NCBI GenBank assembly: GCA_020439745.1
Contig: JAGQSC010000044.1
Span: 1-64,000, forward strand
DNA length: 64,000 nt
Reading direction: 5' to 3'
DNA from: Acidobacteriota bacterium
Lineage (GTDB): Bacteria; Acidobacteriota; Holophagae; Acanthopleuribacterales; Acanthopleuribacteraceae
The translations under genes were made by a program, and so were the position numbers. The first letter of the stretch is position 1. The number at the start of each line of letters is the position of its first letter. The notes beneath the pieces are model-generated. The model searched no databases. It worked only from the letters and a program-made list of their open reading frames with translations, and was not told the DNA's origin. This document shows positions 3,107 to 54,494 of this stretch, piece by piece.

Positions 3107-6100
3107 GTGCGGATTTTTGCCTTGATTATGTGTGTAACCTCTTGCTTGATGGCGCAGGATCAGATGAACCTTGCCAGTGGAGCAGGAGAAGTGGGTGAAG
3201 ATATTCTCTTGGGTTTGTCCATCCGAGACATCGTAGGAACGGAAATCGACACGGGTGGTGAAGACAACTATGCCGCGTTTTCCATTCGACTCAGTTTTGA
3301 CCCCACTTTGGTCGACGAAGCCTCATTTGAGTGGGCTGGTCTAAGCAGCCCGCCATTTTTGTGGGATTTCTGGACACCGGTTGTAGATGCGAATGCCGGT
3401 TTTGCGAATCTTTATGTGTCGTTCAACCCGATCATACCTTTGAATCTTGGCGCACCGGCCCCCGGAGACTTGGTGGCGAATTTGCGCATTAGACCGTCTG
3501 CAGCGGCAGCTGGTCAGACGATTACCTTTGCCATTGCAGATCAAGCCAACACCTATCTTCAGGATGGGTCTGGATTCGTGGAACTGCACGAACCCGAAAT
3601 CACCATCAATCTAGGTACCATCTCAGTCGCAGCCGCGGCAGGCGGACCGGTCATCAATTCTTTCACGGCGTCACCCATTGATGTGTTTCCAGGTGAGGTT
3701 TCCACCTTAAGTTGGCAGGTCACGGACGCCGACAACGTGTCTATTGATCAGGGTGTTGGGCCGGTGTCTACAACCAGTGGTTCGGTCAACGTAACACCCA
3801 TGATGACCACGGTGTACACACTAACTGCAACCAATGGATCGGGCTCATCGACGAGAGCCGTGCAGGTGATGGCGAAGCCGCCCGTGATCAACTCGTTTCT
3901 TGTGGCGCCAGCCTCAATCGTTTCTGGGAACAGTGCTACGTTGAGCTGGACTGTGAATCATGCGGATACGATCAGTATCGATCAAGGTATTGGTGTCGTG
4001 GCGTCCAACGGCTCCATGCAGGTGTCACCCACTTCCACAACCACCTACACGCTGACGGCGGTGAACACAGCTGGTCAAGTCACCAATACAACAACACTGG
4101 TGGTCACAGGCGGATTCGATCCACCTACCATTAACTCTTTCACGGCCACGCCCAGTTCCATTAGTGCGGGTAACAGCTCAACGCTGCAGTGGAATGTCAC
4201 CAACGCCAATACGGTGACCATAGATCAAAGTATCGGGGACGTGATGCCTTCAGGCTCTCGAAGCGTTCAGCCCGTGGCCAACACCACGTATACGTTGGTG
4301 GCGACCAATGGATTTGGTACCCGTAGCGCGACAGTCACCGTGACCGTCGTTTCGGGCGTGCGCATCGTATCATTTACAGCCGAACCTGACTCGTTGAGGC
4401 GGGGCGAGAAAAGTACATTGACGTGGAATACGACCGGTGCGGTAAGCGTGGTGCTCAATCCTGGCAACATGACGGTACCCTTGAATGGCACCATGGACGT
4501 GATGCCCGAAGAGACGACGGAGTATTCGATCAAGGCAACCGGATCGCAGGGTCAGTTTACAAGTGCCGTTCGGCTTGTCAGTGTGTTCGATACCGACATT
4601 GAATTGACCCTAGATGAAGATGAGTTGGATTTTGGTGAATTGACCGAGTCGCTTACGGTTGACTTGTCGGTGAATAATGTTTCCGCCATCGACTTTACGG
4701 TGACCAAGAAGCCTGACTGGTTGACGTTGAACCCTGAGGAAGGTGTGATCGGCGAATTACCTGTTCGCATAACCGTGGTACCCGACCGAAAGGAAATGTA
4801 CCCGGGTCAACGCCTTTCCGCAGAAGTCGAGTTCTCCGCAGCTGGCGTACCTCCAGTGAGTCTGTTTGTAGATGTGGCCAAACGAGAGCAGCCAGAACGG
4901 GGCGTTAGTCTGTTTTTTCCCGGTGTGGTGGTGGACGGCGATCATCAGAGTGTCATCCGACTGGTAAATGCCGATCAAACGACAGGTAAGCTAGACATCC
5001 AGATCTTTAATCAATATGGCGAATTGGAATCGATGACGCGCAACATCCATTTCCCGCCCAATGGTAGTTATCAGCGCGAACTTCCCGTGATGGAAACCGA
5101 TACGGGTTGGGTCGTGGTGACGGCCAATTTCTCGGATGGAGAGCCTGGGCTGAGAAAAGTACATGGAATCCTGGTGACTCGTACGCTTGATGGTGAAGAA
5201 ATTGTGGCGACATCCCCCACCCGCATGGCTCAGGAGACTCTTTTTGTGCCCCACATTGCCAAGGATCCGAGTTTCTACACGCAATCATCCATTAGTAACC
5301 TGAGTCCCGAAGCAGTGATGGATTTTGAATCACCTCAGATTGGGACGCTCATGGTGGGTGATGCCGATAATGGCGAGCAATTGAATTTCGATTTCCGCAC
5401 TTTGATGGGCGGCACAATCACCGGCCCTGGTTGGGGTGAGTTGGTGCTGGACAATAATCGACCGCGCATGGCGGGTATCGAAGTATTTGGGCGCGAAAAG
5501 TCCACCGGATTACGGCAAGCTGTGGGTGTGGCGTTGGATGGAGAGGCGGGCAACGATTTGATCTTCGCGCACATCGCCAAGGACGTCGCTAACTTCTGGA
5601 CGGGTGTGGTCATTATCAACTCGAGCAATCAGGAATCCATGGTTTCCATCACAAGTACCGATTCAACGGGACAACTGATTGGGACCTTCGAAGAAACATA
5701 TGCGCCATTTGAGAAAAAGACGTATCTGGTCACCGCCAGCTCGGTTCCGTTTGGGACCGATTCAGCTTGGGTGCGGGTGCAGTCCAGTGCGCCATTGGTG
5801 GGCTATGAACTATTCGGTACCTATGACGATCGGTTCGCGGGCTTCGAAAGTGTTCGTGCATTGGCCACATCGTGCGCGGTATCGCATTTGGAAGATACGG
5901 TGACGTCGGGCGGCTGGACTGGTTTGGCGATTGTCAATCCGAACCAAGAATCGGCGACACTCACCTTAACGCTGAACTCCCGTTTGGGGGTTCAAAAAGA
6001 AACAACAACCCAGCAGGTGACCGCGGGCAACAAACTCGTCGCGCTTGCAAGCAACCTGTTCACGTCGAATTTCGAAGCGGGTGACTGGATTCTGGTGCAT

Positions 6101-6181
6101 TCGGATTTGCCAGTGGCGGGGTTCGAACTGTTTGGCTATGAACGAAAAACTTTGGCTGCGGTCTTAATCAACCTGGAATAA
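3107..6181 (+). CDS. Secreted modular protein: cohesin-like, Ig-like repeats, C-terminal repeat module
   Basis: A GTG start with AGGGA just upstream gives a 1024-residue protein with a short signal peptide ending near MAQDQ. Residues about 20-175 look like a cohesin-type beta-sandwich (phrases such as AAFSIRLSFDPTLVDEASF). Four Ig-like repeats of about 80 residues follow from residue 181, with a signature of INSF..P......G...TLSW, IDQGIG and TTYTLTATN. Residues about 498-590 resemble a BACON-type domain (PDWLTLNPEEG). The last 420 residues are repeats with the pattern HIA...FWTGVVIIN ... WVRVQ ... VGYELFG, shared with the protein at 61387-63069. No LPxTG or CTERM anchor is visible. It is followed by two further secreted proteins on the same strand. 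Adhesion or extracellular scaffolding is inferred from architecture only. Confidence 0.7.
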   Translation: MRIFALIMCVTSCLMAQDQMNLASGAGEVGEDILLGLSIRDIVGTEIDTGGEDNYAAFSIRLSFDPTLVDEASFEWAGLSSPPFLWDFWTPVVDANAGFANLYVSFNPIIPLNLGAPAPGDLVANLRIRPSAAAAGQTITFAIADQANTYLQDGSGFVELHEPEITINLGTISVAAAAGGPVINSFTASPIDVFPGEVSTLSWQVTDADNVSIDQGVGPVSTTSGSVNVTPMMTTVYTLTATNGSGSSTRAVQVMAKPPVINSFLVAPASIVSGNSATLSWTVNHADTISIDQGIGVVASNGSMQVSPTSTTTYTLTAVNTAGQVTNTTTLVVTGGFDPPTINSFTATPSSISAGNSSTLQWNVTNANTVTIDQSIGDVMPSGSRSVQPVANTTYTLVATNGFGTRSATVTVTVVSGVRIVSFTAEPDSLRRGEKSTLTWNTTGAVSVVLNPGNMTVPLNGTMDVMPEETTEYSIKATGSQGQFTSAVRLVSVFDTDIELTLDEDELDFGELTESLTVDLSVNNVSAIDFTVTKKPDWLTLNPEEGVIGELPVRITVVPDRKEMYPGQRLSAEVEFSAAGVPPVSLFVDVAKREQPERGVSLFFPGVVVDGDHQSVIRLVNADQTTGKLDIQIFNQYGELESMTRNIHFPPNGSYQRELPVMETDTGWVVVTANFSDGEPGLRKVHGILVTRTLDGEEIVATSPTRMAQETLFVPHIAKDPSFYTQSSISNLSPEAVMDFESPQIGTLMVGDADNGEQLNFDFRTLMGGTITGPGWGELVLDNNRPRMAGIEVFGREKSTGLRQAVGVALDGEAGNDLIFAHIAKDVANFWTGVVIINSSNQESMVSITSTDSTGQLIGTFEETYAPFEKKTYLVTASSVPFGTDSAWVRVQSSAPLVGYELFGTYDDRFAGFESVRALATSCAVSHLEDTVTSGGWTGLAIVNPNQESATLTLTLNSRLGVQKETTTQQVTAGNKLVALASNLFTSNFEAGDWILVHSDLPVAGFELFGYERKTLAAVLINLE

Positions 6182-6256
6182 AGCGATGGGATTGATTAAA
6201 ATGCTGTGGTTTAATTCAAAAAAATGAAAATTGTGCCTTATGAAAGGGGATTCACG

Positions 6257-7528
6257 ATGAGAAAGAGCTTTATGGTAATTGCATTGGCCGCTCTGGCATC
6301 TTTGGCGTTTGCCGCCAATGATCTTCGGCTGGTGTCTGCGTCAACCAACGCGGGTCATACGGATGACCACAACATTAATATCGCTGCTTACGCAAATGGA
6401 GACACGTTTGTGGTTGAAGTGTGGTTGATGGACTTTGACTTCACGCTGGCTGGTGCCGAATTTCTGGTGCGCTATCCGACGTACTTGACCCTGATGGAAG
6501 ACACCGATGCGGCATTCCAGGATGGCAATGCGCCTGTTAAAGCGGACCTAACGGCTACAGGCTGGGATTCAACCAACATTCAGATCCTGGCTGCCAACGC
6601 GGGTGGTATGCAAACTGCCGCTCAAGTCAGCAACGGCTTTGGCCGTGTTCGCGTGGGTTACCTGGTTACTGTGACGGGTGACCGTATCACGGGTGACGGA
6701 ACCACTGATATTCGTTTGGGCACTTTGGAATTCCAGGTCAACCGTGCAGCAGCTTCTTGTGTGACTACCTCAGCAGACGTCCGTTTGATCGCATGTACTG
6801 GTAGCTCAGACTGTCAGATCTTTGCAGACGAGACCGCTTCTGCCGTAGCCACCAATGGCGCACCTGCGGACATCATCGTTTCACTGAACAACGGTGGGGC
6901 TTACGGCGTCAAAGGCGACGTGAACAGCAGCGGTGGCGCAACCACGGGTGATGTGGTTCCCCTGATCAACTGCACCAACGGTGTGGGTGCTTGCCCTCCC
7001 GACAGCATTGGTCCTAACACCCATCCCGACCGCTTGGTACTGACCGATGTCAACTGTTCCGGCACGGAAACGACCGCCGACATCGTGCCCTTGATCAATA
7101 TCACCAACGGTATTGCATCTCGCCGTGGTAACAAAGGTCCCATCGACACCTATGCACTGACTGCCAGCAAAGGTCAGCTGCTGATCAACAACGAAGGCGT
7201 TGCTGCTTCAGCGGCATCTGTCGAGTTGGCCATTGATGGCGCCATGGGCCTGGAAATCGCTCCTTTGAGCGATGCAGACAAAGCCAATGGCTGGTACTTG
7301 GCCGGTCAATTGATTCCGGATGCGGGTGTCTACAAAATCACCCTGGCCAATGTGGCCGGTGGCGATGCGGTACTACCCAACGTGTCATTGACTTACAACG
7401 TCACTGGTGAAAACGCGAAAATCGGCATCAACGCAACTGAGTACATTGCATCTGACTTGCGCGACCTGGGTTATGTACCCCTGGTTGAGGACTTCGCTGG
7501 TGCCCGCGGTGGCATCCGCGCCCAGTAA
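6257..7528 (+). CDS. Secreted protein with cohesin-like domain and dockerin-like repeats
   Basis: I start at the ATG at 6257, which has AAAGGGGA 6 bases upstream and opens a clear signal peptide (KSFMVIALAALASLAFA); an in-frame ATG at 6224 lacks both. The 423-residue product has a cohesin-like beta-sandwich at about residues 20-190 (AGAEFLVRYP, IRLGTLEFQV). Two dockerin-like calcium-loop repeats follow: GDVNSSGGATTGDVVPLIN from residue 220 and TDVNCSGTETTADIVPLIN around residue 264, each followed by a T-N-G tail. Having both module types on one chain is notable. Four or more cysteines between the repeats may form disulfides. The C-terminal 130 residues look like another beta-rich domain. Likely exported, possibly able to bind the cohesin-like neighbours; binding is not shown. 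Confidence 0.7.
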   Translation: MRKSFMVIALAALASLAFAANDLRLVSASTNAGHTDDHNINIAAYANGDTFVVEVWLMDFDFTLAGAEFLVRYPTYLTLMEDTDAAFQDGNAPVKADLTATGWDSTNIQILAANAGGMQTAAQVSNGFGRVRVGYLVTVTGDRITGDGTTDIRLGTLEFQVNRAAASCVTTSADVRLIACTGSSDCQIFADETASAVATNGAPADIIVSLNNGGAYGVKGDVNSSGGATTGDVVPLINCTNGVGACPPDSIGPNTHPDRLVLTDVNCSGTETTADIVPLINITNGIASRRGNKGPIDTYALTASKGQLLINNEGVAASAASVELAIDGAMGLEIAPLSDADKANGWYLAGQLIPDAGVYKITLANVAGGDAVLPNVSLTYNVTGENAKIGINATEYIASDLRDLGYVPLVEDFAGARGGIRAQ

Positions 7529-40540: not shown

Positions 40541-41511
40541 ACAGGCGCGCTCACTGCCGATGATTCCTCAATTCGGTCAATGATTGTCAAGATCTGGTTG
40601 AGCGAGGTGACTTGCGTGGAATCTCTGCGCAAGTCTAGTCGATTGGCTAAGGTGACCAAGTGAATGAGAAACTTACGAAAACGACGGGCCATGGCATCTG
40701 GAGTCCCCATACGCACCATTTCGGTGGCGAAATATCGCCAATCGCCCAGTTGATCGATGGCCTGGAGTTGCGGTAGCTGTATGTTGTCGATGAGCGAAGC
40801 TGCTACGGCGCGTAACACATAGGGGTCGGAGACCGCGGCGCGGCCTATCATCACACCGTTCAGATTGCCAAGCATGGCCTGGGCCGAAGTGGCGTCCACA
40901 ACGTCTCCATTGCCGAAGACGGGTATGCGGAGTGCAGCCTTCAATTCATAGATCTCTGTCCAGTCAGCGTTCCCGCTGAATTTCTGAGCGTACGTACGAC
41001 CGTGGACCGTCATGGCGTCCAAACCAGCGGCTTCTAATTTCAGGCCAAAGGGTACTAGGTCGTCAGCGTGCTCCCAACCGAGCCTTGTCTTGACGCTGAC
41101 GGGTATGTTGACGACCGACTTCACCCCCGCTACCAGTTCGCAGGCTAGGTCAATATTCTTCATCAGCGCTGAACCATGTTGATGGGCAACAATGCGACGA
41201 GCCGGACATCCCATATTCAGGTCTATGCCTGCAGCTCCGCGGTCCTCTGCAAGTCTGGCCGCTACTTTGAAGTCGCTGGCGTCTTTTCCGTATAGTTGAA
41301 CGACGAGCGGTTGGTCCTGAGTTTCAATATCCATCCAGTCGTCGGCCAATTTGGGCTTCTTGGCCAGTTCCGTGGCGCTTAAGAACTCGGTGAACAGGAC
41401 AATTCTGGGCTCGATTCGCTTGACCAAACGTCTAAATGCCCGATCGGTGTAGCCATCCATGGGTGCCAATATGACAATGGGCTTTGGGGAATGGGTCCAA
41501 TGACCAGTCAT
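40537..41511 (-). CDS. dus: tRNA-dihydrouridine synthase (Dus family)
   Basis: A 324-residue FMN enzyme that reduces uridines in tRNA D-loops. ILAPMDGYTDRAFRRL, the active-site cysteine block DLNMGCPARRIV, VKTRLGWE, TVHGRTYAQKFSG and IPVFGNGDV with the FMN phosphate site IGRAAVSDPY are all present. Which uridine it modifies cannot be decided; the wording is nearest DusB. Overlaps both neighbours by 4 bases, so part of the six-gene minus-strand unit. Confidence 0.92.
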
Positions 41512-41819
41512 GAGTTAACCTGGACTAGAATGCGATCGCCCGAAATCTTGGTGACGAAAACACGTAGACCGCTCATAGCCGGCGGACCGTGGGATGCTCC
41601 CGTTTTGAGGCAGAATTTTGCGCCGTGCCAGGGGCACAATACGTCGTCTCCGGTAATGTAGCCATCGGTGAGAGGGGCCCCGACGTGGGTGCAACTGTTG
41701 GAAACCGCGTGTATCCCAGATTTGGATCGAAACAATCCAATTTCGAGCTCCCCAACTTGAACAGCCAAACACTCGTCAAGATCGGCCACTCCTGCTACAT
41801 CAACCCAGCGTTCCATCAT
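41508..41819 (-). CDS. Rieske-type [2Fe-2S] ferredoxin
   Basis: A 103-residue soluble protein resembling dioxygenase ferredoxin components and NirD. The cluster-binding motifs CTHVGAPLTDG and CPWHGAKF give C-x-H and C-x2-H. No signal peptide or transmembrane segment, so cytoplasmic. No dioxygenase or nitrite reductase large subunit lies nearby. It overlaps dus by 4 bases and follows the PilZ gene by 6. Electron transfer role by family; partner unknown. Confidence 0.87.
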   Translation of the reverse strand: MMERWVDVAGVADLDECLAVQVGELEIGLFRSKSGIHAVSNSCTHVGAPLTDGYITGDDVLCPWHGAKFCLKTGASHGPPAMSGLRVFVTKISGDRILVQVNS

Positions 41820-44439: not shown

Positions 44440-44476
44440 AACCAAAGGGCTCGTCTAACGAGCCCATTGGTTCTTG
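44440..44476 (+). terminator. Terminator hairpin after the EF-G gene
   Basis: AACCAA-A-GGGCTCGT (44440-44454) pairs with ACGAGCCC-A-TTGGTT (44458-44472) around a CTA loop, with one internal A-A mismatch. A run of A precedes and TTCTTGATT follows, so termination may be modest or bidirectional. Confidence 0.75.
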
Positions 44477-44535: not shown

Positions 44536-45009
44536 ATGAGTGATAAGCAGGGATCCCGTAGAAGTTTCCTGGCCACCGGTGCCATGATTTCTGCGTTGAC
44601 GGCAGCTTACGGGTTCTTCTTCAAGAATGTCTTTCGCTTTGTTTTTCCCGAACGGAAGGCAAAGAATGTGCGCCCCATGTTTGTGGCCTATGCGCCGCGT
44701 CTGCCGGTGGGATCAAGTGTCCAGTTCTACACGCCGAAGGGTGCCAGTGTCATCCTGACCAACACGGGTCAATTGCAAAAGGGCACGAACCATGGGTTCA
44801 TCGCGTTTTCCAGTCGGTGCCCCCATCTGGGATGTAACGTGCATTACGCGCCAAAAGAAGAGCGTTTCGTTTGCCCCTGCCATCAGGGCGTGTTTGATCA
44901 GAAAGGCGTCGCGATTTCTGGACCACCGGCTCAGGCAGGTCAAAGACTGTCAGAGTTCAGCGTGGTCAAAGAAGGCGAATCCGTTTACGTGTTGGTTGAG
45001 GTAGCCTGA
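44536..45009 (+). CDS. Tat-exported Rieske iron-sulfur protein of a b6f/bc-type complex
   Basis: A 157-residue protein with a twin-arginine start (SRRSFLATGA) and an N-terminal membrane anchor (about residues 13-35). The 2Fe-2S ligands are in CPHLGCNVHY and CPCHQGVFD, the cysteine and histidine pairs with the disulfide cysteines that mark high-potential Rieske proteins of quinol-cytochrome c complexes. The proline loop is GPPAQAGQRL. Its TGA overlaps the ATG of the cytochrome b gene by one base (TGATG). It would take the first electron from quinol and pass it on to a c-type cytochrome, here probably the octaheme protein encoded next. No cytochrome c1 or f gene is present. Confidence 0.92.
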   Translation: MSDKQGSRRSFLATGAMISALTAAYGFFFKNVFRFVFPERKAKNVRPMFVAYAPRLPVGSSVQFYTPKGASVILTNTGQLQKGTNHGFIAFSSRCPHLGCNVHYAPKEERFVCPCHQGVFDQKGVAISGPPAQAGQRLSEFSVVKEGESVYVLVEVA

Positions 45010-46061
45010 TGTTTGGCGCAGCCTGGTCCTGGTTCCGATCGCGCGTACCTATCAACGAGGAAGTGTTGCGGCATATGAGTGCCGAGCCGGTCGCTGGCCA
45101 CTTGAAACGGTGGTGGTGGTGTCTGGGTGGTACCCCTCTATACCTTTTCCTTTTGCAGGTACTGACGGGTATTATCCTAACGTTTTATTACATACCCAAC
45201 CCTGAACACGCCTATGAGAGCGTTCGAACCATCACTCAAGAGCTACCCTATGGTTGGTATTTGCGGTCGTTTCACAAATGGGGCGCAAATTTGATGATCG
45301 TGGCCGTCTTGTTGCACATGATTCGCGTGTACTTTTCAGGTGCCTATCGTAATCCTCGAGAACTCAATTGGGTGGTTGGATGCATGCTCCTTTTTGTGAC
45401 CTTGGGATTTGGTTTTACGGGGTATTCGTTACTTTGGGAACAACTTTCATACTGGGGTATTACTGTCGCTGGTAACATCTTGCGAGCCACGCCACTGATG
45501 GGGGATCTTCTGGCCGACTTTATGCGCGGAGGTCAGGAAGTAGGCACCAACACGCTTACGCGTTTTTATGTGTTCCATATCGGCATTCTTCCCACCGTGT
45601 TGATTGGGTTTCTTGTGGTGCATGTATACCTGATTCGAACACATGGTGTATCTCAGCTTGAAGGTGAGAGGTCGACGGATCAGAAGACCTTCCCCTTCTT
45701 TCCAGACCACTTCTTAACGGAATTGGCGATCGGCGCATTTTTGATGTTCTTGATCAGCTGTTTGGCAGTGATATTTCCTGCACATATGGGGCCGGAGGCC
45801 AATCCGCTTGTAACCCCTGAACACATCAAACCGGAATGGTACTTCTTTTGGGCGTTCAGATGGCTGAAGTTGATGACTGACACCCAAGCTGTCATGACGC
45901 AAGGTGTTTTCATGGCATTCATTGTGATCTGGCCATTTATAGACGGCTGGATCCGAAAACGATGGTCTCGTAGTGAGATCAGTATCTACGTCGGCATTGC
46001 CGTCATTCTTTACTTACTTGGCCTTACCGTCTGGGAAGCCCTGTATCTGTTGCATGGATAG
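45009..46061 (+). CDS. Cytochrome b, b6-type with fused subunit IV, probable heme c_n cysteine
   Basis: A 350-residue membrane protein with about seven or eight helices, covering both the cytochrome b6 part and the subunit IV part. The heme b ligands lie in FHKWGANLM, LLHMIRVY, VFHIGILP and VVHVYLIRTHG; the spacing of the second pair is 14 residues, the b6f type rather than the bc1 type. Cys38 in WWWCLGGTP aligns with the cysteine that carries the extra c-type heme in cytochrome b6 (YCLGG). The quinol-site PEWY motif is KPEWYFFW. It lies between the Rieske and octaheme cytochrome genes in the Nap cluster, so it is likely the quinol oxidase core of this chain. Confidence 0.9.
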   Translation: MFGAAWSWFRSRVPINEEVLRHMSAEPVAGHLKRWWWCLGGTPLYLFLLQVLTGIILTFYYIPNPEHAYESVRTITQELPYGWYLRSFHKWGANLMIVAVLLHMIRVYFSGAYRNPRELNWVVGCMLLFVTLGFGFTGYSLLWEQLSYWGITVAGNILRATPLMGDLLADFMRGGQEVGTNTLTRFYVFHIGILPTVLIGFLVVHVYLIRTHGVSQLEGERSTDQKTFPFFPDHFLTELAIGAFLMFLISCLAVIFPAHMGPEANPLVTPEHIKPEWYFFWAFRWLKLMTDTQAVMTQGVFMAFIVIWPFIDGWIRKRWSRSEISIYVGIAVILYLLGLTVWEALYLLHG

Positions 46062-46070
46062 GAGGAAACC

Positions 46071-47561
46071 ATGGGCTTGAACGCAAAACAGTGGGTTGTG
46101 ACCGCCATGGCGGCACTGTTTTTCGCGGTGTTACTGATTGTAGCTTGGGTGGAAGGCGGGCGCGCCCGAGTCGTCCAGAACCCCGAGTCACTGGTGACGG
46201 GACCCAACGAAAAATGCGTGGACTGTCACGAAGTGAAGACGCCGGGCATCGTGGGCCAGTGGCATCAAAGCAAACATTCTCAGTCAGGTATTGGCTGTGT
46301 GGAATGTCATCAAGCCGAGGCAGGCGATATAGATGGCTATAACCATGAAGGCATGCTGATCACAGCTGTGGTATCTCCCAAAGATTGCTCCAAGTGTCAT
46401 GAGCGGGAATTCAAGGAGTTCGAGGAAAGCCATCATGCAGAAGGTGGCAAGATCTTGGGTTCACTGGACAACGTGTTGGCAGAGGTTGTGGAGGGACATG
46501 TTCTGTTCGATCACGACGGTAACCGAGTTCAGGCTTCGGCCGCGGCAGTGTCGGGTTGTCTCCAGTGCCATGGCTCCGAAATCAAAGTACTCGAAGATGG
46601 AAAACTGCATCCAGATACATGGCCGAATACCGGTATTGGACGCATCAACCCCGACGGTTCCAAGGGCTCGTGTTCTGCCTGCCATTTGCGTCACGACTTT
46701 GATTTGGCACAGGCACGGATGCCAGAGAACTGTGGACGCTGTCACCTGGGTCCCGATCATCCTCAACTTGAAGTGTACAACGAGTCCAAACACGGCATTG
46801 CGTTCGCGGCCAATCGCATTCGTTTCACGCCGGATATGAGCGAAAAGGATTGGTTGCCAGGTGTGCATTACGAACAAGGTCCTACGTGTTCTTCTTGTCA
46901 CATGAGCGCGACAAGAAATCTACCTGTGACCCATGATGTGGGATCGAGAATCTCTTGGACTTTGCGTCCACCAGTATCAGAGAAAATCGATGCCGCTGCT
47001 AAGAAACAGGGACTTGACGTCAAATCATGGGAAGACCGAAGAGCAGACATGAAGGACGTATGCACGAGTTGTCACGGTCCTCGTTGGGTCGAAAACTGGT
47101 ATGAGCAATATGACAACTTGGTGGTGCTCTACAACGAGAAATTCGGCAAGCCAGCAACCGCCTTATACAAAGCTGTTCGTGCCAAGGGTCTGATCTCCGC
47201 CGACGTGACGTTTGATGATTCAATTGAATTCACATACTTCTTCCTTTGGCATCATGAAGGCCGTCGAGCACGTCACGGCGCGGCTATGATGGGCCCAGAC
47301 TATACCCAGTGGCACGGCATGTATGAGGTTGCCCATCGGTTCTACATGGAATTCGTACCGGAGCTAAAGGAAATCATCGAAGCTGGCTATCGGTCTGGGG
47401 ACCCTCAGTTGAAGAAGGCGGCGGATGAGGTTGAAGCGCAATTGGACGAGGTGCTCAATTCCGAAATGCATCAGTGGTTCCTGGGCAGGATGAGTCCGAA
47501 CCAGAAAGCGGCGCGAGAAAAAGCCAGATCGGAATTTCAGAAGCGTTACGCTGGGGATTGA
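46071..47561 (+). CDS. Octaheme c-type cytochrome, hydroxylamine oxidoreductase-like
   Basis: AGGAGG lies 6 bases before the ATG. The 496-residue protein has one N-terminal membrane segment (about 8-28) and eight CxxCH heme sites, starting at residues 49, 76, 106, 163, 201, 221, 273 and 331. After the last comes a helical tail with FFLWHHEGRRARHGAAMM and YTQWHGMYE, as in the HAO family. HAO-type proteins oxidise hydroxylamine, or in other branches reduce nitrite or hydroxylamine, and some only relay electrons. A tyrosine lies in the YTQWHG block, but I cannot judge whether it forms the active-site crosslink that marks oxidative enzymes. The gene sits between cytochrome b and napD, so it may link quinol oxidation to NapAB or act on the product of nitrate reduction. 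Confidence 0.87.
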   Translation: MGLNAKQWVVTAMAALFFAVLLIVAWVEGGRARVVQNPESLVTGPNEKCVDCHEVKTPGIVGQWHQSKHSQSGIGCVECHQAEAGDIDGYNHEGMLITAVVSPKDCSKCHEREFKEFEESHHAEGGKILGSLDNVLAEVVEGHVLFDHDGNRVQASAAAVSGCLQCHGSEIKVLEDGKLHPDTWPNTGIGRINPDGSKGSCSACHLRHDFDLAQARMPENCGRCHLGPDHPQLEVYNESKHGIAFAANRIRFTPDMSEKDWLPGVHYEQGPTCSSCHMSATRNLPVTHDVGSRISWTLRPPVSEKIDAAAKKQGLDVKSWEDRRADMKDVCTSCHGPRWVENWYEQYDNLVVLYNEKFGKPATALYKAVRAKGLISADVTFDDSIEFTYFFLWHHEGRRARHGAAMMGPDYTQWHGMYEVAHRFYMEFVPELKEIIEAGYRSGDPQLKKAADEVEAQLDEVLNSEMHQWFLGRMSPNQKAAREKARSEFQKRYAGD

Positions 47562-47562
47562 T

Positions 47563-47790
47563 GTGGCTATTTCATCGTTTGTGGTTGACGCACTGCCGGC
47601 TGATCTAGATCAGGTGGCCAACCAGCTGCAGCAACTGGCTGGGGTTGAGCTTTGTGGACGTGGTGAACAGGGCCTTGCCCTGGTTTGGGAGTCCGATGCA
47701 TCCACTCGCGCTGAGGACATGATCTCCCAGCTTTGGGTAAAAGGTGTTCGAGGCGTTTCGCTGGTTTTTGCCAGTCGTCAGGAAGAATAA
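47563..47790 (+). CDS. napD: NapD-like chaperone for NapA
   Basis: A 75-residue protein starting at GTG one base after the octaheme gene's stop. The N-terminus [20 protein letters not shown] and the regular beta-alpha-beta repeat follow NapD, a cytoplasmic chaperone that binds the Tat signal of NapA until the cofactor is inserted. It directly precedes napA by 11 bases. Small size limits certainty, but position and size agree. Confidence 0.75.
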
Positions 47791-47801
47791 GGAGTTTGCA
47801 A

Positions 47802-50132
47802 ATGAGTACCGACCGCCGAGATTTTATGAAGGCATTAGCGGCAGGCTGGGCAACCACTTTGGTCTCGGGAACAGCCACAGCAGGTGACCGCCAGAAAGAC
47901 CAAGCAGAGTGGCTTGAAAGTGGATCCATCAACTGGGCCAAGGCGCCATGTCGATTCTGTGGAACGGGTTGTGGTGTGATGGTGGGTGTCAAAGATGGGA
48001 AGGTAGCTGCTGTGGCTGGCGACCCACAGAACCCGGTCAACCAAGGAAAGCTATGCGCGAAAGGTTATCACCTGCCTTTTGTTTTGTACGGTAAGGACCG
48101 CTTGACCGTGCCTCAGATTAGGCGAAATGGCAAGCTGGAAGGCGCTTCTTGGGCGGAAGCCTTGGATTTGATCGCTTCCAAATTCAAGTCTTCATTGGAT
48201 GAATTCGGTGCGGATTCGGTGGCCATTTATGGATCTGGTCAATGGACCATTCAGGACGGTTATGCGGCCAACAAGTTCATGAAGGGTGGGCTTGGCACCA
48301 ATAATGTGGAAGCCAATGCACGCTTGTGTATGGCAAGTGCAGTGGTTGGTTTCCTGAAGTCGTTTGGCAAAGATGAGCCCATGGGCTGCTATGACGATTT
48401 TGAAGAAGGCGATGTTTTTGTCTTCTGGGGCAACAACATGTCCGAGAACCATCCGGTCCTGTTTTCTCGAATTACGGCTCGAAAGGATTCCGCGAGCTGG
48501 GTGCGTCTGGTTGATATCACGACTCGAAAAACAAGAACATCCGAAGAATCAGATTTGGTGCTGATGATGAATCCACAGTCTGATTTGGCTTTAGCCAACG
48601 GTATCTGCCGCGAGATTATCAGGAACGGTTGGGTCAACGAAGATTTTGTCAAGAAACACTGTTTGTTCCGCCAAGACAATGAGGATATCGGATATGGAAT
48701 GCGGGAGGACATAGGTTACACGCCGGCCGAAGAGATGATCGATTTCGACGCATACAGGGCGTTTCTCGAGCCCTACACCCTGGAGTATGTAGAGAAGATC
48801 TCTGGGGTGCCCGCGTCCCAAGTCAAGCAGTTGGCAGCATGGTACGGCGATCGCAGCAAGAAGGTGGTCAGCCTGTGGTGTATGGGCATGAACCAACACA
48901 CGCGCGGTACTTGGATCAACAACTTGGTGTACAACATTCACTTGTTAACGGGAAAAATCAGCGAACCAGGCAATAGTCCTTTTTCATTGACAGGCCAGCC
49001 ATCGGCCTGTGGCACGGTTCGCGAGGTAGGTACATTGACACATGCATTGCCCGGCGGTCGAGTGGTAATGAACCCAGAGCACCGCGCTTTTGCGGAGAAG
49101 ATCTGGAATGTGCCCAGCGGAACCATCAAAGACAAACCTTCAAATCACACCATGTCCATGTTCCGCAAACTGGCGAATGGTCAACTGAAAGCCATGTGGA
49201 TACAAGTCACGAATCCCATGGTCACCATTCCCGATCTCAACCATTTCATGAATGGCATCAAGGAACACAAACCGTTCATAGTGGTTTCCGATGTTTATCC
49301 AACGCCAACCACAGCCATAGCTGACGTGGTCCTGCCCTCAGCCATGTGGGTTGAGCGCGAAGGATGTTTTGGCAATTCCGAAAGGCGCACGCAGCACTGG
49401 GTGAAAATGGTGGATGCGCCGGGTGAAGGCAAACCAGACAGTTGGCAGATTATTGAAGTGGCCAAGCGTATGGGCTGCGGCAACTTGTTCCCCTGGGACG
49501 ACGAGTCGGCTCAGGCCCAGGGTCTTTACGAGGAATACCGGGAATTCACCTTGAATGTGGGCAAGGATGTTGCCACTTGGGATGAGCTGAAACGCACTCG
49601 AGGTATGAGGTGGCCGGTTGTGGACGGCAAAGAAACCCGATGGCGTTACCGAGAGGGTTCGGATCCTTATGTCAAGAAGGGCACCGGATTCTCTTTTTAC
49701 GGCAACAAGAAATTCGAAGATCGCGCCATAATCTGGAAGCGACCTTATGTGGATCCACCGGAGATGCCTGACAAGGACTATCCGCTTTGGCTGACTACGG
49801 GACGTGTCCTAGAGCATTGGCATACTGGTTCCATGACACGTAGGGTACGTGCGTTGCACCAAGCGGTTCCGGAAGCCTTCGTTGAGATGCACCCCGAAGA
49901 TGCACGAGAGCTTGGTGTGAGTGACGGATCCATAGTGAAAGTTGTTTCCCGCCGCGGCGAATGCCTATTGAAACTTGCCATAAACCGGCGTTCGGTGCCA
50001 AAAAGGGGAAACGTTTTTGTTCCCTTTTTCGACGAAGCGAAGCTGATTAACATGGTCACTTTGGATGCTCACTGTCCCTTGTCCAAACAACCCGATTACA
50101 AGAAATGCGCTGTCCGCGTGGAACCAGTGTAG
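47802..50132 (+). CDS. napA: Periplasmic nitrate reductase catalytic subunit NapA
   Basis: The ATG at 47802 has AAGGAG 8 bases upstream; an upstream frame extension overlaps napD. The 776-residue molybdopterin enzyme begins with a Tat signal ([11 protein letters not shown]). The 4Fe-4S ligands are in [10 protein letters not shown] and KLCAKG (C-x2-C-x3-C-x27-C). The Mo ligand is cysteine in [13 protein letters not shown], as in NapA, not selenocysteine or Ser/Asp. The chain is shorter than the usual 830 residues. It reduces nitrate to nitrite in the periplasm. No napC, napG, napH or napF is next to it; NapB-like and the octaheme/Rieske/cytochrome b genes flank it. Other family members could use other oxyanions, though the wording favours nitrate. 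Confidence 0.9.
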
Positions 50133-50141
50133 GGGGGCTTC

Positions 50142-50690
50142 ATGGCCAGAATCCTAACGGTATTACCACTATTACTCGTTTTGCTCAGTTGTGGCGACCA
50201 GGCAAAGGAGCCGGTGTCATCGACACCGAGGGTCACCGACAGAGAAACGATCCGTGGTTACCATGGTGCGCCACCCGTTATTCCCCATCAAGTGGCCGCA
50301 TTAGGTCGAGCGAACTGCCTATCTTGTCATGGCCCAGGTCAAGAGAGACCCGATCAATCACGTGCTTTGGCAGCCCTGACGCCCCATCCTGAGTGGCGCA
50401 ATTGTCAACAGTGTCACGTGGAAATTTCTACCGATGATGAGTTTGTGGTCAACGTGTTTGTGCCTTTGCCCGAACCCGAAGTCCTTGCTATGGAGACACC
50501 GTTTTTGCCACCTTACATTCCCCATCGCATTCAAGATCGAGATGGACATTGCGAATCCTGCCACATAGGTCCTCAAGCCAGGCCGGAAATTGTGCCCAAT
50601 CACGGGCCCCGTGATAATTGTCGACAATGCCACCTATCCACGTATGGCGAGACCATGGAGTTTGGCACTAAGGTGGCCTCATTTCCCTAA
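50142..50690 (+). CDS. napB: Tetraheme lipoprotein, NapB with duplicated diheme module
   Basis: GGGGGG lies 5 bases before the ATG. The 182-residue protein begins with a lipoprotein signal ending LLVLLSCGDQ (lipid on Cys17). It has four CxxCH heme sites, at residues 59, 88, 137 and 160, whereas NapB usually has two. The two halves look like repeats of one unit: PPVIPH then CLSCH and CQQCH, and PPYIPH then CESCH and CRQCH. So this is likely a NapB whose diheme module was duplicated. It would supply electrons to NapA and could reach further, perhaps to the octaheme protein. Ends the six-gene run. Confidence 0.82.
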   Translation: MARILTVLPLLLVLLSCGDQAKEPVSSTPRVTDRETIRGYHGAPPVIPHQVAALGRANCLSCHGPGQERPDQSRALAALTPHPEWRNCQQCHVEISTDDEFVVNVFVPLPEPEVLAMETPFLPPYIPHRIQDRDGHCESCHIGPQARPEIVPNHGPRDNCRQCHLSTYGETMEFGTKVASFP

Positions 50691-50784: not shown

Positions 50785-51420
50785 ATGAATCAGCCTCTGA
50801 TGAGTACAGTTGGCATTGTTGAAGACAATGCCACCTATCGCGAAGTACTGGTGGATTTTCTCAACCAGCACTTCCAATGCAATGTTGTGGCTGAATCGGT
50901 TGAGTCGTTTATGGCCGCTGTTGGGGACGGACCTTACCCCGACGTTGTCTTGATGGATATTGAATTGCCTGGTGTGAGTGGGATACAGGGTGTCGCACAA
51001 GTACGAGAACGGTCTCCCAAGACAGAAGTGGTGATGCTCACTATTTTTGAGGACTCCGACCACGTTTTTGACGCGCTGTGCGCTGGCGCCTCCGGTTACA
51101 TGTTAAAACACAGCCCCCTTCAATCCATTAAGCGTTCGGTTGAGGACGCCGCCAGCCACGGCTCTCCTATGTCGCCTCGCGTTGCACGCAAGGTTCTGCA
51201 GAAGTTCTTTCCACAGAAAGAAGAGGACAACTCAGGATTGTCAAGACGGGAGCAGGACGTGGTTTCCGGCCTTGTGGAAGGCCTCTCCTACAAGGAGATA
51301 GGCGACCGCCTCTTCATTAGCGTGGACACTGTTCGCCACCATATTCGAAACATCTACCGCAAGCTGGAAGTGAACTCAAAAACCGAGGTCATGCAGAAGT
51401 ACTGGCGGCGTGAGACTTAA
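50785..51420 (+). CDS. LuxR/NarL-family response regulator
   Basis: A 211-residue two-domain regulator. Receiver (about 8-125): acidic pair in GIVEDNA, phosphoacceptor Asp in DVVLMDIELPG, Thr in VVMLTIF, Lys in YMLKHSP. LuxR-type helix-turn-helix at about 148-205 (LSRREQDVVSGLVEGLSYKE, DTVRHHIRNIYRKLEV). ATG at 50785 or 50800; neither has a clear Shine-Dalgarno sequence. The convergent next gene is a HisKA_3 kinase, the partner type for NarL-family regulators, and the two genes end within the same TTAA. The position just after the Nap cluster suggests control of nitrate respiration, which is inference. Confidence 0.9.
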   Translation: MNQPLMSTVGIVEDNATYREVLVDFLNQHFQCNVVAESVESFMAAVGDGPYPDVVLMDIELPGVSGIQGVAQVRERSPKTEVVMLTIFEDSDHVFDALCAGASGYMLKHSPLQSIKRSVEDAASHGSPMSPRVARKVLQKFFPQKEEDNSGLSRREQDVVSGLVEGLSYKEIGDRLFISVDTVRHHIRNIYRKLEVNSKTEVMQKYWRRET

Positions 51421-54400
51421 GTGTCTTCCATCCATACGGGGGGATCGATCTTGCGTGGACGTCGAGGTCGCAATTTGCGCAACATGTTGCCAAACACGAT
51501 GGACCTCTTAGGGTAGGGAACCCGCACCTCAATGGTGACACCATGAGTGGAGGACCAAGTGAATTGTCCGCCCACCGATTCCGCACGCCACTTCATGTTC
51601 TTGAGTCCGTTGCCATTGCCCTGTTCAGTGATGCCTTGGCCATTGTCAGCGATGGTCAATATCAATTGGTGACCCTGTTTTCCCAAATGCACATGTACGC
51701 GATCCGCATCAGCATGCCGTGCAGCGTTTCCCAGAGCTTCCTTGTAGATGAGCAGTAGGTTTTGCCGCAGGTTTGGCGATAGCTGACGGTCCAAGTCCAA
51801 TTTGTCTGTTGCGAAAGAAACAGTCAAATGACCATCTAGGTTTTGTGCCAGTTCCTTCATGCGAATAATGAGATCATTGAGTTGATCGTATCGGCAGTCC
51901 ATGGACCAAACAAGGTCTTTCATACGGACGATCAGGCTCCTGGAAGTCGTTTCTATCTGGCTCAAATACTTGTCGTTATGGCCGTGTCCTTCCCGAACGA
52001 AATTGGCCATGATGGCCACATTAGTCAGAGCCGCGCCAATGTCGTCGTGGAGGTCGCGCGCAATCCTGGTTCGCAGTCGCTCGAATCCTACCAACCGACG
52101 AACCCTCAAGCGATATATCCAAAAAGCCACCGCAAAGACGAGAAGAATGGAGAGCGATTTGGCCCAAGTGGTCTGATACCAGGCTGGAAGAATCTCAATT
52201 TCAATAGACGTTCCAGCTTCATTCCAGATGCCGTCTCGATTGCTGGCTTTGACGCGAAATTGGTATGAGCCTGGAGGTAGGTTCGTGTATGTGGCCCTTC
52301 GGTTGGAAGCATCTGTTTCAATCCACTGCGTGTTGTAACCTTCCAGTTTGTAGGCGTATCTGTTTTTGGTTGGCCGGGTGTAGTCCAGTGCCGAAAACAA
52401 CATGGAAAACATGCTGTGGTCCGGACACAATTGTATCTTCTCAGTATGCGTGATGGCTTGCTTCAACGGTGAGTGCCCATCAAGGCGCTGCAACTTCACG
52501 GGACGATTAGCAATGAGGAGGTCCGTCAATACGACAGGTGGTACGAATTCACTCGAAATCAACTCAATGGGGTTGACCACAGTGATACCGTTGATGCCTC
52601 CAAAATAGAGGTGACCAGAACTCGTTTTGCAAGATGATCCAAAATTGAACTCGTTGCTTTGCAGGCCATCGTGCACGTCGTAGTTTTGAAAACTCATGAG
52701 CTCGGTGTTCATGACCGAAAGTCCCAGATTCGTGCTTATCCACAATCGGTTCGAATCATCTTCCAGCACGCCGTAGATCACATCGTTGGGCAATCCGTCG
52801 TGGGTGGTCCAGGTCATGAATGTGCCCTGTTCGCGATCCATCAGATTGAGCCCATAAGCCGTACCGACCCAGAACCTTCCGTAGTGATCCTCAAACATGG
52901 TCGTGATTACGTCATGACTAATGGAAGGTTCGCCCGAGCGTTGCACGTAGCGCTTGAAGGTACCATCACCCAGGTAGGCATTGAGGCCCCCACCGTTGGT
53001 ACCTACCCAAAGCCGACTGTCATGATCGACGAATAGCGAATAGACCCGGTCGTCACTCAAACTCGCAGGATCGTTTGGATGATTGCGGTAATGCTCAAAA
53101 TCTCCTGACTGGGTCATCTTATTCAATCCGCTGCCGTTGCACCCGACCCAAAGTTCATGGTTTGCCTTAGCAATAGCGATGACCCGATTTCCGCTTAGAC
53201 TGCTCGGGTTCTTGGGATCATGGGTATATCTTGTGATTTGTTCTGTGTGCACGTTGATATGATTCAAACCTTGTTTGTTCGTCCCAATCCAAACACCCTC
53301 TTCATCGGGGCACAGGGCAAATACATCGTCCTGGCTAAGCGCCGAATTGGTGGTGTTGAAGTGTTTGAAAGTTTGGGTACTTGGACTGTACCGGTCCAGA
53401 CCACCACCTTTTGTGCCAATCCATAGATCGCCGTTGTGGTCTTCCACCATGGCGAACACCAATCGGTGACTGAGCGTGTTTATGTTGGACTGATCGTGTT
53501 TCAGATGAACAAAGCCCCTGGACCCGCTGTTGATTCGGCTTACGCCGCCGCCTTCAGTGCCAATCCAAATAGACCCTGACCGATCTTCGTAAAGCGCAAA
53601 CACCGAATCAGCGCTAAGGCTGTCTGGGTCACTCAAGCTGTGAATGTACCGCTCAAAACCCTCACCATGAACCTTGTTGAGTCCGCCTCCATCGGTACCA
53701 ATCCAAATGCGTTGTTCTCGATCGATCAAGATCTGTGTGACTTCGTTGTGACCTAGACTCGAAGGATCGGCTGGATTGTGCAGGTAATGACGCGTACCAT
53801 TGGGTGACAACGTGTAAAGACCGTTGCCAATCGTACCTACCCACAACTTGTTCCCATCACAGGCAAGGGCAAAAACAGGTCCCTCTATTTGCGTTGAATG
53901 GTCAAATCCACGTCCCGTGTAACGATTCAATCCCGATTGAGTGCCCACCCAAATATTTCCCTGTGCGGTAATCGCGAACGACAACACATGGTTGTTGTCT
54001 AAACTGGAACCATCTTCGGGGTCGTGCTGCAAATGATGCAATCCTCCATTTGTAGGGTTGTAGATGCTGATTCCAGCTTTCTGAGTGCCCATCCAAATTC
54101 GGCCCTGTTTGTCTTGCGCCAATGCTCGGATGGAGTCAGATCCTTCCATTTTGTTGACGAATGGGTGAAATGATTCGTTGGCGGTATCAAAGCGACACAC
54201 GCCACCCCCCCAAGTTCCCACCCAGATATCCCCGGACTTGCTTTCCAGCAAACTGGTGATTCTATTGTCGGTCAACGATGTTGCATCGTCAGTTCGATGA
54301 CGATAATGGAGGAACTCGTACCCATCATACCGGTTGAGTCCATCTTCCGTACCAAACCAAAGAAAACCCTTGTGGTCTTGAAGCACGCACAAAACACTGT

Positions 54401-54494
54401 TTTGAGACAAGCCGTCTTCTAAGGTCAAGTGGTCAAATCGCAGTGGCGTTGGGCTTGTCGTCGCATATGCAGCGATGATAAAGAAACGCAACAT
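51417..54494 (-). CDS. Reg_prop/Y_Y_Y sensor histidine kinase (HisKA_3)
   Basis: A 1025-residue membrane sensor. A short signal peptide leads to two seven-bladed-type beta-propellers made of Reg_prop repeats (about 25-640), with recurring GxLWVGTxGGGLNR and DPSSLSxNRV text. A Y_Y_Y Ig-like domain (about 690-765, YAYKLEGYNTQWIETD, TYTNLPPGSYQFRV), one transmembrane helix (about 783-800), a HisKA_3 domain with phosphoacceptor His in ARDLHDDIGAALTN (near 815) and an HATPase domain (NGNGLKNM) follow. No receiver domain is fused, unlike many Bacteroidota hybrids. Likely partner: the convergent NarL-type regulator. The periplasmic propeller implies an extracellular or periplasmic ligand, unknown. 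Confidence 0.92.
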   Translation of the reverse strand: MLRFFIIAAYATTSPTPLRFDHLTLEDGLSQNSVLCVLQDHKGFLWFGTEDGLNRYDGYEFLHYRHRTDDATSLTDNRITSLLESKSGDIWVGTWGGGVCRFDTANESFHPFVNKMEGSDSIRALAQDKQGRIWMGTQKAGISIYNPTNGGLHHLQHDPEDGSSLDNNHVLSFAITAQGNIWVGTQSGLNRYTGRGFDHSTQIEGPVFALACDGNKLWVGTIGNGLYTLSPNGTRHYLHNPADPSSLGHNEVTQILIDREQRIWIGTDGGGLNKVHGEGFERYIHSLSDPDSLSADSVFALYEDRSGSIWIGTEGGGVSRINSGSRGFVHLKHDQSNINTLSHRLVFAMVEDHNGDLWIGTKGGGLDRYSPSTQTFKHFNTTNSALSQDDVFALCPDEEGVWIGTNKQGLNHINVHTEQITRYTHDPKNPSSLSGNRVIAIAKANHELWVGCNGSGLNKMTQSGDFEHYRNHPNDPASLSDDRVYSLFVDHDSRLWVGTNGGGLNAYLGDGTFKRYVQRSGEPSISHDVITTMFEDHYGRFWVGTAYGLNLMDREQGTFMTWTTHDGLPNDVIYGVLEDDSNRLWISTNLGLSVMNTELMSFQNYDVHDGLQSNEFNFGSSCKTSSGHLYFGGINGITVVNPIELISSEFVPPVVLTDLLIANRPVKLQRLDGHSPLKQAITHTEKIQLCPDHSMFSMLFSALDYTRPTKNRYAYKLEGYNTQWIETDASNRRATYTNLPPGSYQFRVKASNRDGIWNEAGTSIEIEILPAWYQTTWAKSLSILLVFAVAFWIYRLRVRRLVGFERLRTRIARDLHDDIGAALTNVAIMANFVREGHGHNDKYLSQIETTSRSLIVRMKDLVWSMDCRYDQLNDLIIRMKELAQNLDGHLTVSFATDKLDLDRQLSPNLRQNLLLIYKEALGNAARHADADRVHVHLGKQGHQLILTIADNGQGITEQGNGNGLKNMKWRAESVGGQFTWSSTHGVTIEVRVPYPKRSIVFGNMLRKLRPRRPRKIDPPVWMEDT

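Follow-up and report, generated by a model that had tools for sequence, protein, structure and literature searches.

A run of six genes in an Acidobacteriota genome sets a Rieske protein and a cytochrome b directly before an octaheme cytochrome c (OCC) and the genes of a periplasmic nitrate reductase (Nap). This arrangement raises the question of what OCC does there, and of how electrons from quinol reach nitrate. In the initial annotation, quinol was taken to be oxidized by the Rieske/b pair, and OCC was placed where cytochrome c1 or f would be, either as a relay to NapAB or as an enzyme that reduces the nitrite or NO made.

Gene organization of the locus

The six genes occupy positions 44536-50690 of the window, which is the whole 64-kb stretch of DNA that was analyzed. 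According to the window sequence and its open reading frame calls, all six are intact and lie on the + strand in the order Rieske, cytochrome b, OCC, NapD, NapA and NapB, with gaps of at most 11 bases and one 1-base overlap. The features are as follows.

44447..44465, + strand, terminator-like hairpin (8 pairs, 6 of them G-C, then a T-rich tail), between the EF-G gene and the cluster
44536..45009, + strand, Rieske [2Fe-2S] protein (PF00355, 8.7e-10), with Tat signal SRRSFL and motifs CPHLGC and CPCH
45009..46061, + strand, cytochrome b of the b6 plus subunit-IV type (PF00033, 9.7e-54; PF00032, 2.2e-08), overlapping the Rieske gene by 1 base
46071..47561, + strand, OCC of the HAO superfamily, with eight CxxCH and an N-terminal membrane anchor
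47563..47790, + strand, NapD, chaperone of NapA, GTG start (PF03927, 44.4 bits against a cut-off of 28)
47802..50132, + strand, NapA, periplasmic nitrate reductase, ATG start (NF010055 and TIGR01706 over cut-off)
50142..50690, + strand, four-heme NapB (PF03892, 29.7 bits against a cut-off of 25.1)
50785..51420, + strand, LuxR/NarL-type response regulator (PF00072 plus PF00196; NarP sub-threshold, 101 bits)

The EF-G homologue that precedes the cluster ends at 44429 and is followed by the hairpin. Matches to sigma-70 promoters were less frequent than in shuffled sequence and were given no weight. The response regulator is, from its position only, a possible regulator of the cluster. A two-component propeller sensor kinase gene (51417-54494) is convergent to it, and their 3' ends overlap by 4 bases. 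Outside the cluster, the - strand encodes a soluble Rieske-type ferredoxin of 103 aa (41508-41819). A motif of the hybrid-cluster protein (Hcp) was sought across the window and none was found.

The Rieske, Cytochrome_B, NapD, molybdopterin and NapB domains passed the Pfam gathering cut-offs. NapA exceeded the cut-offs of two NCBIfam equivalogs, NF010055 (1037.8 bits, cut-off 904) and TIGR01706 (1003.8 bits, cut-off 930.55), and its Tat signal, 4Fe-4S cysteines and Mo-ligand Cys in ARLCMAS were kept across relatives. The heme ligands and the PEW(Y) Qo motif of cytochrome b were kept in 43 sequences, and the Rieske motif in 39. As in bc1/b6f-type complexes, the locus thus joins a Rieske protein to a cytochrome b with heme-b histidines and PEWY, and this conservation supports the reading of the pair as a quinol dehydrogenase. 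The coordinates, family scores and CxxCH counts also bear out the six-gene run, its order, its heme motifs and its tight spacing as first described. NapC, NapG and NapH had been reported as missing, which holds for the cluster itself: none of them, nor NapM, was found within 44536-50690. The cluster also has no cytochrome c1 or f gene, and the anchored OCC occupies that place. OCC (eight CxxCH) and NapB (four) were the only multiheme open reading frames in the window.

The four CxxCH motifs of NapB differ from the canonical two hemes. They are arranged in two PPxIPH..CxxCH..CxxCH repeats, which mark NapB as the canonical diheme unit duplicated in tandem. Its N-terminus, read by eye, has a lipobox-like LLSC. 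Four-heme NapB was found in 18 further clusters of the same Nap branch (such loci include L069, L102, L118, L156-L158 and L163-L170), across which the partner varied (Rieske/b, an NrfD module, NrfHA, no partner). Three other clusters had a NapB with two hemes. These results indicate that the four-heme NapB is a trait of the Nap branch and not of the link to Rieske/b. A phrase search of the literature for a tetraheme NapB gave no description.

Recurrence of the cluster

Conserved synteny had been named as a check on the initial annotation, and it was found. Rieske, cytochrome b, OCC, NapA and NapB recurred together in nine other genomes of the phylum, belonging to four families (L069, L163-L170), and the same five genes were present in permuted order in a tenth (L160). 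This recurrence suggests a selected unit; chance assembly of the cluster was ruled out by the repeated synteny. In a second version, Rieske-cytochrome b-OCC was accompanied by porin-NapM-NapA-NapG-NapH. L053 and L174, from other members of the phylum, have this version, as do 7 of the 9 Calditrichota loci inspected, the other two loci being incomplete. NapM, NapG and NapH therefore occur in clusters such as L053, L174 and L227 and are absent from that of the window. OCC has relatives at no fewer than 561 loci in public genomes; within the phylum, 111 of the 396 genomes have them.

Fold and active site of OCC

In a profile search, the closest match to OCC was the Ignicoccus octaheme cytochrome 4qo5 (E 4e-72), followed by hydroxylamine oxidoreductases (HAO). 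An AlphaFold model of OCC (mean pLDDT 82) gave the same ranking. Structure comparison yielded a Z of 27.6 over 395 residues for 4qo5, about 19-21 for HAO and anammox HAO-like proteins, with the Kuenenia HAO-like protein 6h5l among the closest folds, and about 8-10 for the nitrite reductases NrfA/ONR. The closest solved structure is thus archaeal, from Ignicoccus hospitalis. The octaheme nitrite reductase of orange Beggiatoaceae was set aside as a comparison, being related to Shewanella OTR.

D229-H230 of OCC aligned with D267-H268 of 1fgj and was invariant in 25 sequences; Asp267/His268 of N. europaea is the catalytic Asp-His pair of HAO (PMC3814345). OCC thus combines eight CxxCH motifs, the HAO fold and the active-site Asp-His pair of the HAO superfamily. 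The cross-linking Tyr467 is absent in reductive members. A candidate Tyr in OCC lies in DYTQWHG and is Phe in some relatives, and the C-terminal parts are unaligned with HAO. HAO-like proteins can also yield NO or hydroxylamine. No measured activity for a member of the exact branch of OCC was found in the literature.

The N-terminal anchor of OCC co-varies with a Rieske/b neighbour

The model of OCC contains a continuous helix at residues 3-33, unbroken as predicted for an uncleaved anchor. Among 130 OCC loci, a pattern describing this anchor matched 30 of the 30 OCCs adjoining cytochrome b and 1 of the 100 others. Since the pattern had been written after the sequences were seen, it was checked on 20 loci fetched later, where it matched 9 of 9 with Rieske/b and 0 of 11 without. 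The anchor was also seen by eye at all nine Rieske/b loci of Calditrichota. A plainer hydropathy measure left more overlap between the two groups of the 130 loci: at a threshold of 2.0 it was passed by 30/30 of those next to cytochrome b and by 31/100 of the others.

On the OCC tree, the Rieske/b label requires 10 changes, and the starred branches force at least 7 of them. The starred clade that contains the OCC of the window has seven members: an anchor is present in the four that have Rieske/b, and a cleavable-looking signal peptide in each of the three that lack it. The anchor alone is not proof, because two distant OCCs (L071 and L209, about 31-33% identical) are anchor-like by eye and had no Rieske/b neighbour that we could find. 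The repeated joint gain and loss of anchor and Rieske/b in these sequences suggests physical association. This tracking of a Rieske/b neighbour by the anchor is new. It suggests that OCC is a bound third subunit replacing cytochrome c1/f, and it favors the position first assigned to OCC. The anchor rule offers a simple sequence marker for HAO-like proteins of Rieske/b complexes, and it makes the proposed association testable by co-purification.

OCC with exchangeable partners

We then considered whether OCC passes electrons to Nap or consumes them itself. If OCC were an electron relay in place of cytochrome c1/f, it would carry quinol electrons to NapB and NapA, and nitrite would be the end product. 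Its gene does sit between Rieske/b and Nap, its anchored form tracks Rieske/b, and OCC and NapB are the sole c-type cytochromes of the cluster. Rieske/b-type Qcr is known to feed Nap in C. jejuni (PMC6195509). However, Rieske-cytochrome b-OCC was also found in genomes without a NapA match at E 1e-130, among them G184, G108, G137, G253 and G152; G184 and G108 (98% complete) are near-complete. OCC was moreover coupled to other donors where Rieske/b is absent. Four such modules were observed. The partner was a tetraheme-FeS-NrfD module at L102 and other loci, and a NapC/NrfH-family protein in Vibrio, Shewanella, Photobacterium and others; at further loci it was a NapC-domain penta/hexaheme protein or a nine-heme-b561 protein. 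The NrfD module accompanied OCC-NapD-NapA-NapB in Verrucomicrobiota (L102, L118).

NrfHA can also fill the place of OCC. In G390 (L156), NrfH-NrfA stands directly before NapA-NapB where OCC would be. Just upstream of these four genes, L156 has a hybrid-cluster-protein-like open reading frame with the motif MFCNQCEQ (6058-7338). The stronger OCC matches were used for co-occurrence counts over the 396 genomes, with relatedness ignored. OCC and NapA occurred together (22 shared genomes, odds ratio 8.3, p 1.6e-8), and OCC avoided NrfA (5 shared genomes, odds ratio 0.15, p 1.5e-6).

The partner swaps, the loci without NapA and the avoidance of NrfA point to OCC as a terminal reductase in the role of NrfA, with exchangeable donors. 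The invariant Asp-His pair also argues against the relay, which we regard as unlikely as the sole role of OCC. As the host genome shows no NrfA, NirK or NorB either, the comparative evidence favors OCC as the terminal enzyme, reducing nitrite to ammonium, over OCC as no more than a relay to NapAB. The two roles are compatible, and both can be true. Of the roles first proposed for OCC, nitrite reduction has thus gained from the loci without NapA, the four other partner modules and the NrfHA swap; the relay is less favored, and NO is a less likely product than ammonium.

Other respiratory genes of the genome

Absences in the genome of the window refer to family searches of a 97% complete draft. 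These searches found no NrfA, nothing over cut-off for NirK, no evident NorB-like protein among four heme-copper oxidase hits, and no second Rieske-type b complex. The only other cytochrome-b hit was a b6-FeS fusion on C49. That contig holds an unusual cluster (L172, G000:C49:60000-74000), in which genes for a heme-copper oxidase subunit I-like protein and a CoxB-like protein accompany one for a 697-aa protein that fuses a b6-type cytochrome to an iron-sulfur HdrA2-like part. Alternative complex III was recognized on C10 by gene order and heme counts, and oxidase genes were located on C58, C63 and C49. These results suggest that the nap-linked Rieske/b pair is unneeded for oxygen respiration and looks dedicated.

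Three unlinked candidates for a quinol dehydrogenase or donor were present. The first is a NapC-domain hexaheme membrane protein of 487 aa on C25 (L171, G000:C25:58000-72000), which lies beside a monoheme protein and whose relatives are directly downstream of OCC in L058-L062 and L064-L066. The second is a NapH-like protein on C63 (62.9 bits against a cut-off of 213). The third is an orphan tetraheme-FeS-NrfD-pentaheme cluster on C6 (L187, G000:C6:100000-112000); it is closely related to the NrfD module that adjoins OCC elsewhere, and its NrfD subunit scores as DsrP (7e-118).

One of these proteins could feed NapAB while Rieske/b feeds only OCC, so that the two modules would be co-regulated and electrically separate. 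NapAB of the same branch does lack Rieske/b in G212, and in G390 it is accompanied by NrfHA. The tight cluster, its gaps of at most 11 bases and its conserved order nevertheless make such a separation improbable, and the candidates themselves are weak or nearer other functions, the NapH-like protein being far below cut-off and the NrfD-type protein scoring as DsrP. A separate NapC or NapGH serving NapAB had been named as a finding that would speak against the initial annotation; unlinked candidates do exist, but they qualify poorly for that part.

Discussion

In this study, we found a NapDAB version of the Rieske/b-OCC cluster that lacks NapG, NapH and NapM and has a duplicated NapB. This version, together with the comparative results, is what the window adds. 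A literature search for its arrangement returned C. abyssi and related Nap-Hao cases only. C. abyssi makes ammonium from nitrate without NrfA and has a Nap/Rieske-cytochrome b/eHao cluster, and the electron route and the electrogenic role of Rieske/b/OCC with Nap were already proposed for it by Kublanov et al. in 2017 (PMC5317091). Both have contiguous Rieske, cytochrome b and anchored octaheme HAO-like genes adjoining nap genes, no NrfA, and alternative complex III elsewhere. The window has NapD, NapA and a four-heme NapB; in C. abyssi, NapB is missing, and NapM, NapG and NapH are present (PMC5317091). A Calditrichota genome taken as C. abyssi by gene order (G400) encodes an anchored OCC only about 34% identical to that of the window.

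Other systems share parts of the arrangement. In the R/b-3 complex of Kuenenia stuttgartiensis (Kuste4569-4574), all subunits co-migrate and nitrite reduction has been proposed (PMC12954380, PMC12485887). Like the window, it joins a b6-type cytochrome b and a Rieske protein to an HAO-like octaheme cytochrome; unlike the window, it adds a hexa- or octaheme c subunit and an NAD(P) oxidoreductase, has no Nap, and NO is its proposed product. Electron flow from Qcr to Nap was shown genetically in Campylobacter jejuni and argued to be electrogenic, with 2 H+ per 2 electrons (PMC6195509). Its QcrABC resembles the Rieske/b complex that may feed Nap here, but QcrC is a diheme c4-type cytochrome rather than an octaheme one, and NapG and NapH are present and essential. 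Beside Nap, an HAO-like protein has been proposed to form ammonium in the stead of NrfA in Nautilia (PMC3701875), Deferribacter (PMC6896113) and Thermosulfurimonas/Dissulfuribacter (PMC5276818). Such reverse-HURM/Nap-Hao clusters differ from the window in their electron supply, which runs via a NapC/NrfH-type protein, an NrfD module or some other cytochrome in place of Rieske/b.

The cluster probably encodes a nitrate-ammonification operon in which NapAB reduces nitrate to nitrite, the anchored OCC reduces nitrite to ammonium, and quinol oxidation by Rieske/b feeds both. The genes lead us to infer the following for the substrate of OCC, its physical association with Rieske/b, the path of the electrons and proton pumping. 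NapAB, with its chaperone NapD, would reduce nitrate to nitrite in the periplasm. Quinol would be oxidized at the Qo site (PEWY) of cytochrome b; one electron would pass through the Rieske protein to OCC, and the other would recycle through the b hemes. The N-terminal helix of OCC would tether it to the membrane, where it would be the third subunit and take the position of cytochrome c1/f. OCC would turn nitrite into ammonium, or partly into hydroxylamine, and NapB and NapA would take electrons from OCC or directly from the Rieske protein. Rieske/b would probably drive a proton-motive Q cycle. The potentials involved, about -75 mV for menaquinol and +420 mV for nitrate, make it feasible for a Q cycle to work against a normal proton-motive force, an argument also made for C. 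jejuni (PMC6195509). The Q-cycle reading is plausible but not new, given C. abyssi and the anammox Rieske/b complexes with a bound HAO-like OCC. The findings also support, in the same conditional sense, the earlier suggestion of a more energy-conserving nitrate respiration.

More tentatively, Rieske/b and the anchored OCC may form a single quinol:nitrite oxidoreductase with NapAB docking to it, which would occur in several phyla and have been repeatedly gained and lost together with the anchor. If this is true, quinol oxidation, proton translocation and nitrite reduction would take place in one bc-type complex, whose cytochrome c subunit is a multi-electron nitrite reductase.

Ammonium is a likelier end product than NO. 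A role of OCC in reducing nitrite to NO, which has been proposed for Kuste4574 in the anammox R/b-3 complex, or in detoxifying NO or hydroxylamine, is very unlikely. The precedent of Kuste4574 and HAOr (PMC12954380, PMC12485887) and the closeness of the 6h5l fold speak for such a role. They are opposed by the genome of the window, in which no NirK passed the cut-off and NorB was not evident, by ammonium formation in C. abyssi with its syntenic cluster, and by the ammonium-forming NrfHA in the same position in G390.

The usual view is that neither Nap nor cytochrome c nitrite reductases conserve energy when quinol is oxidized. Coupling of a bc-type complex to both Nap and a nitrite reductase would make nitrate ammonification proton-motive, and growth-yield estimates would change for the many bacteria that have no NrfA and go unnoticed in counts of nitrate ammonification based on nrfA.
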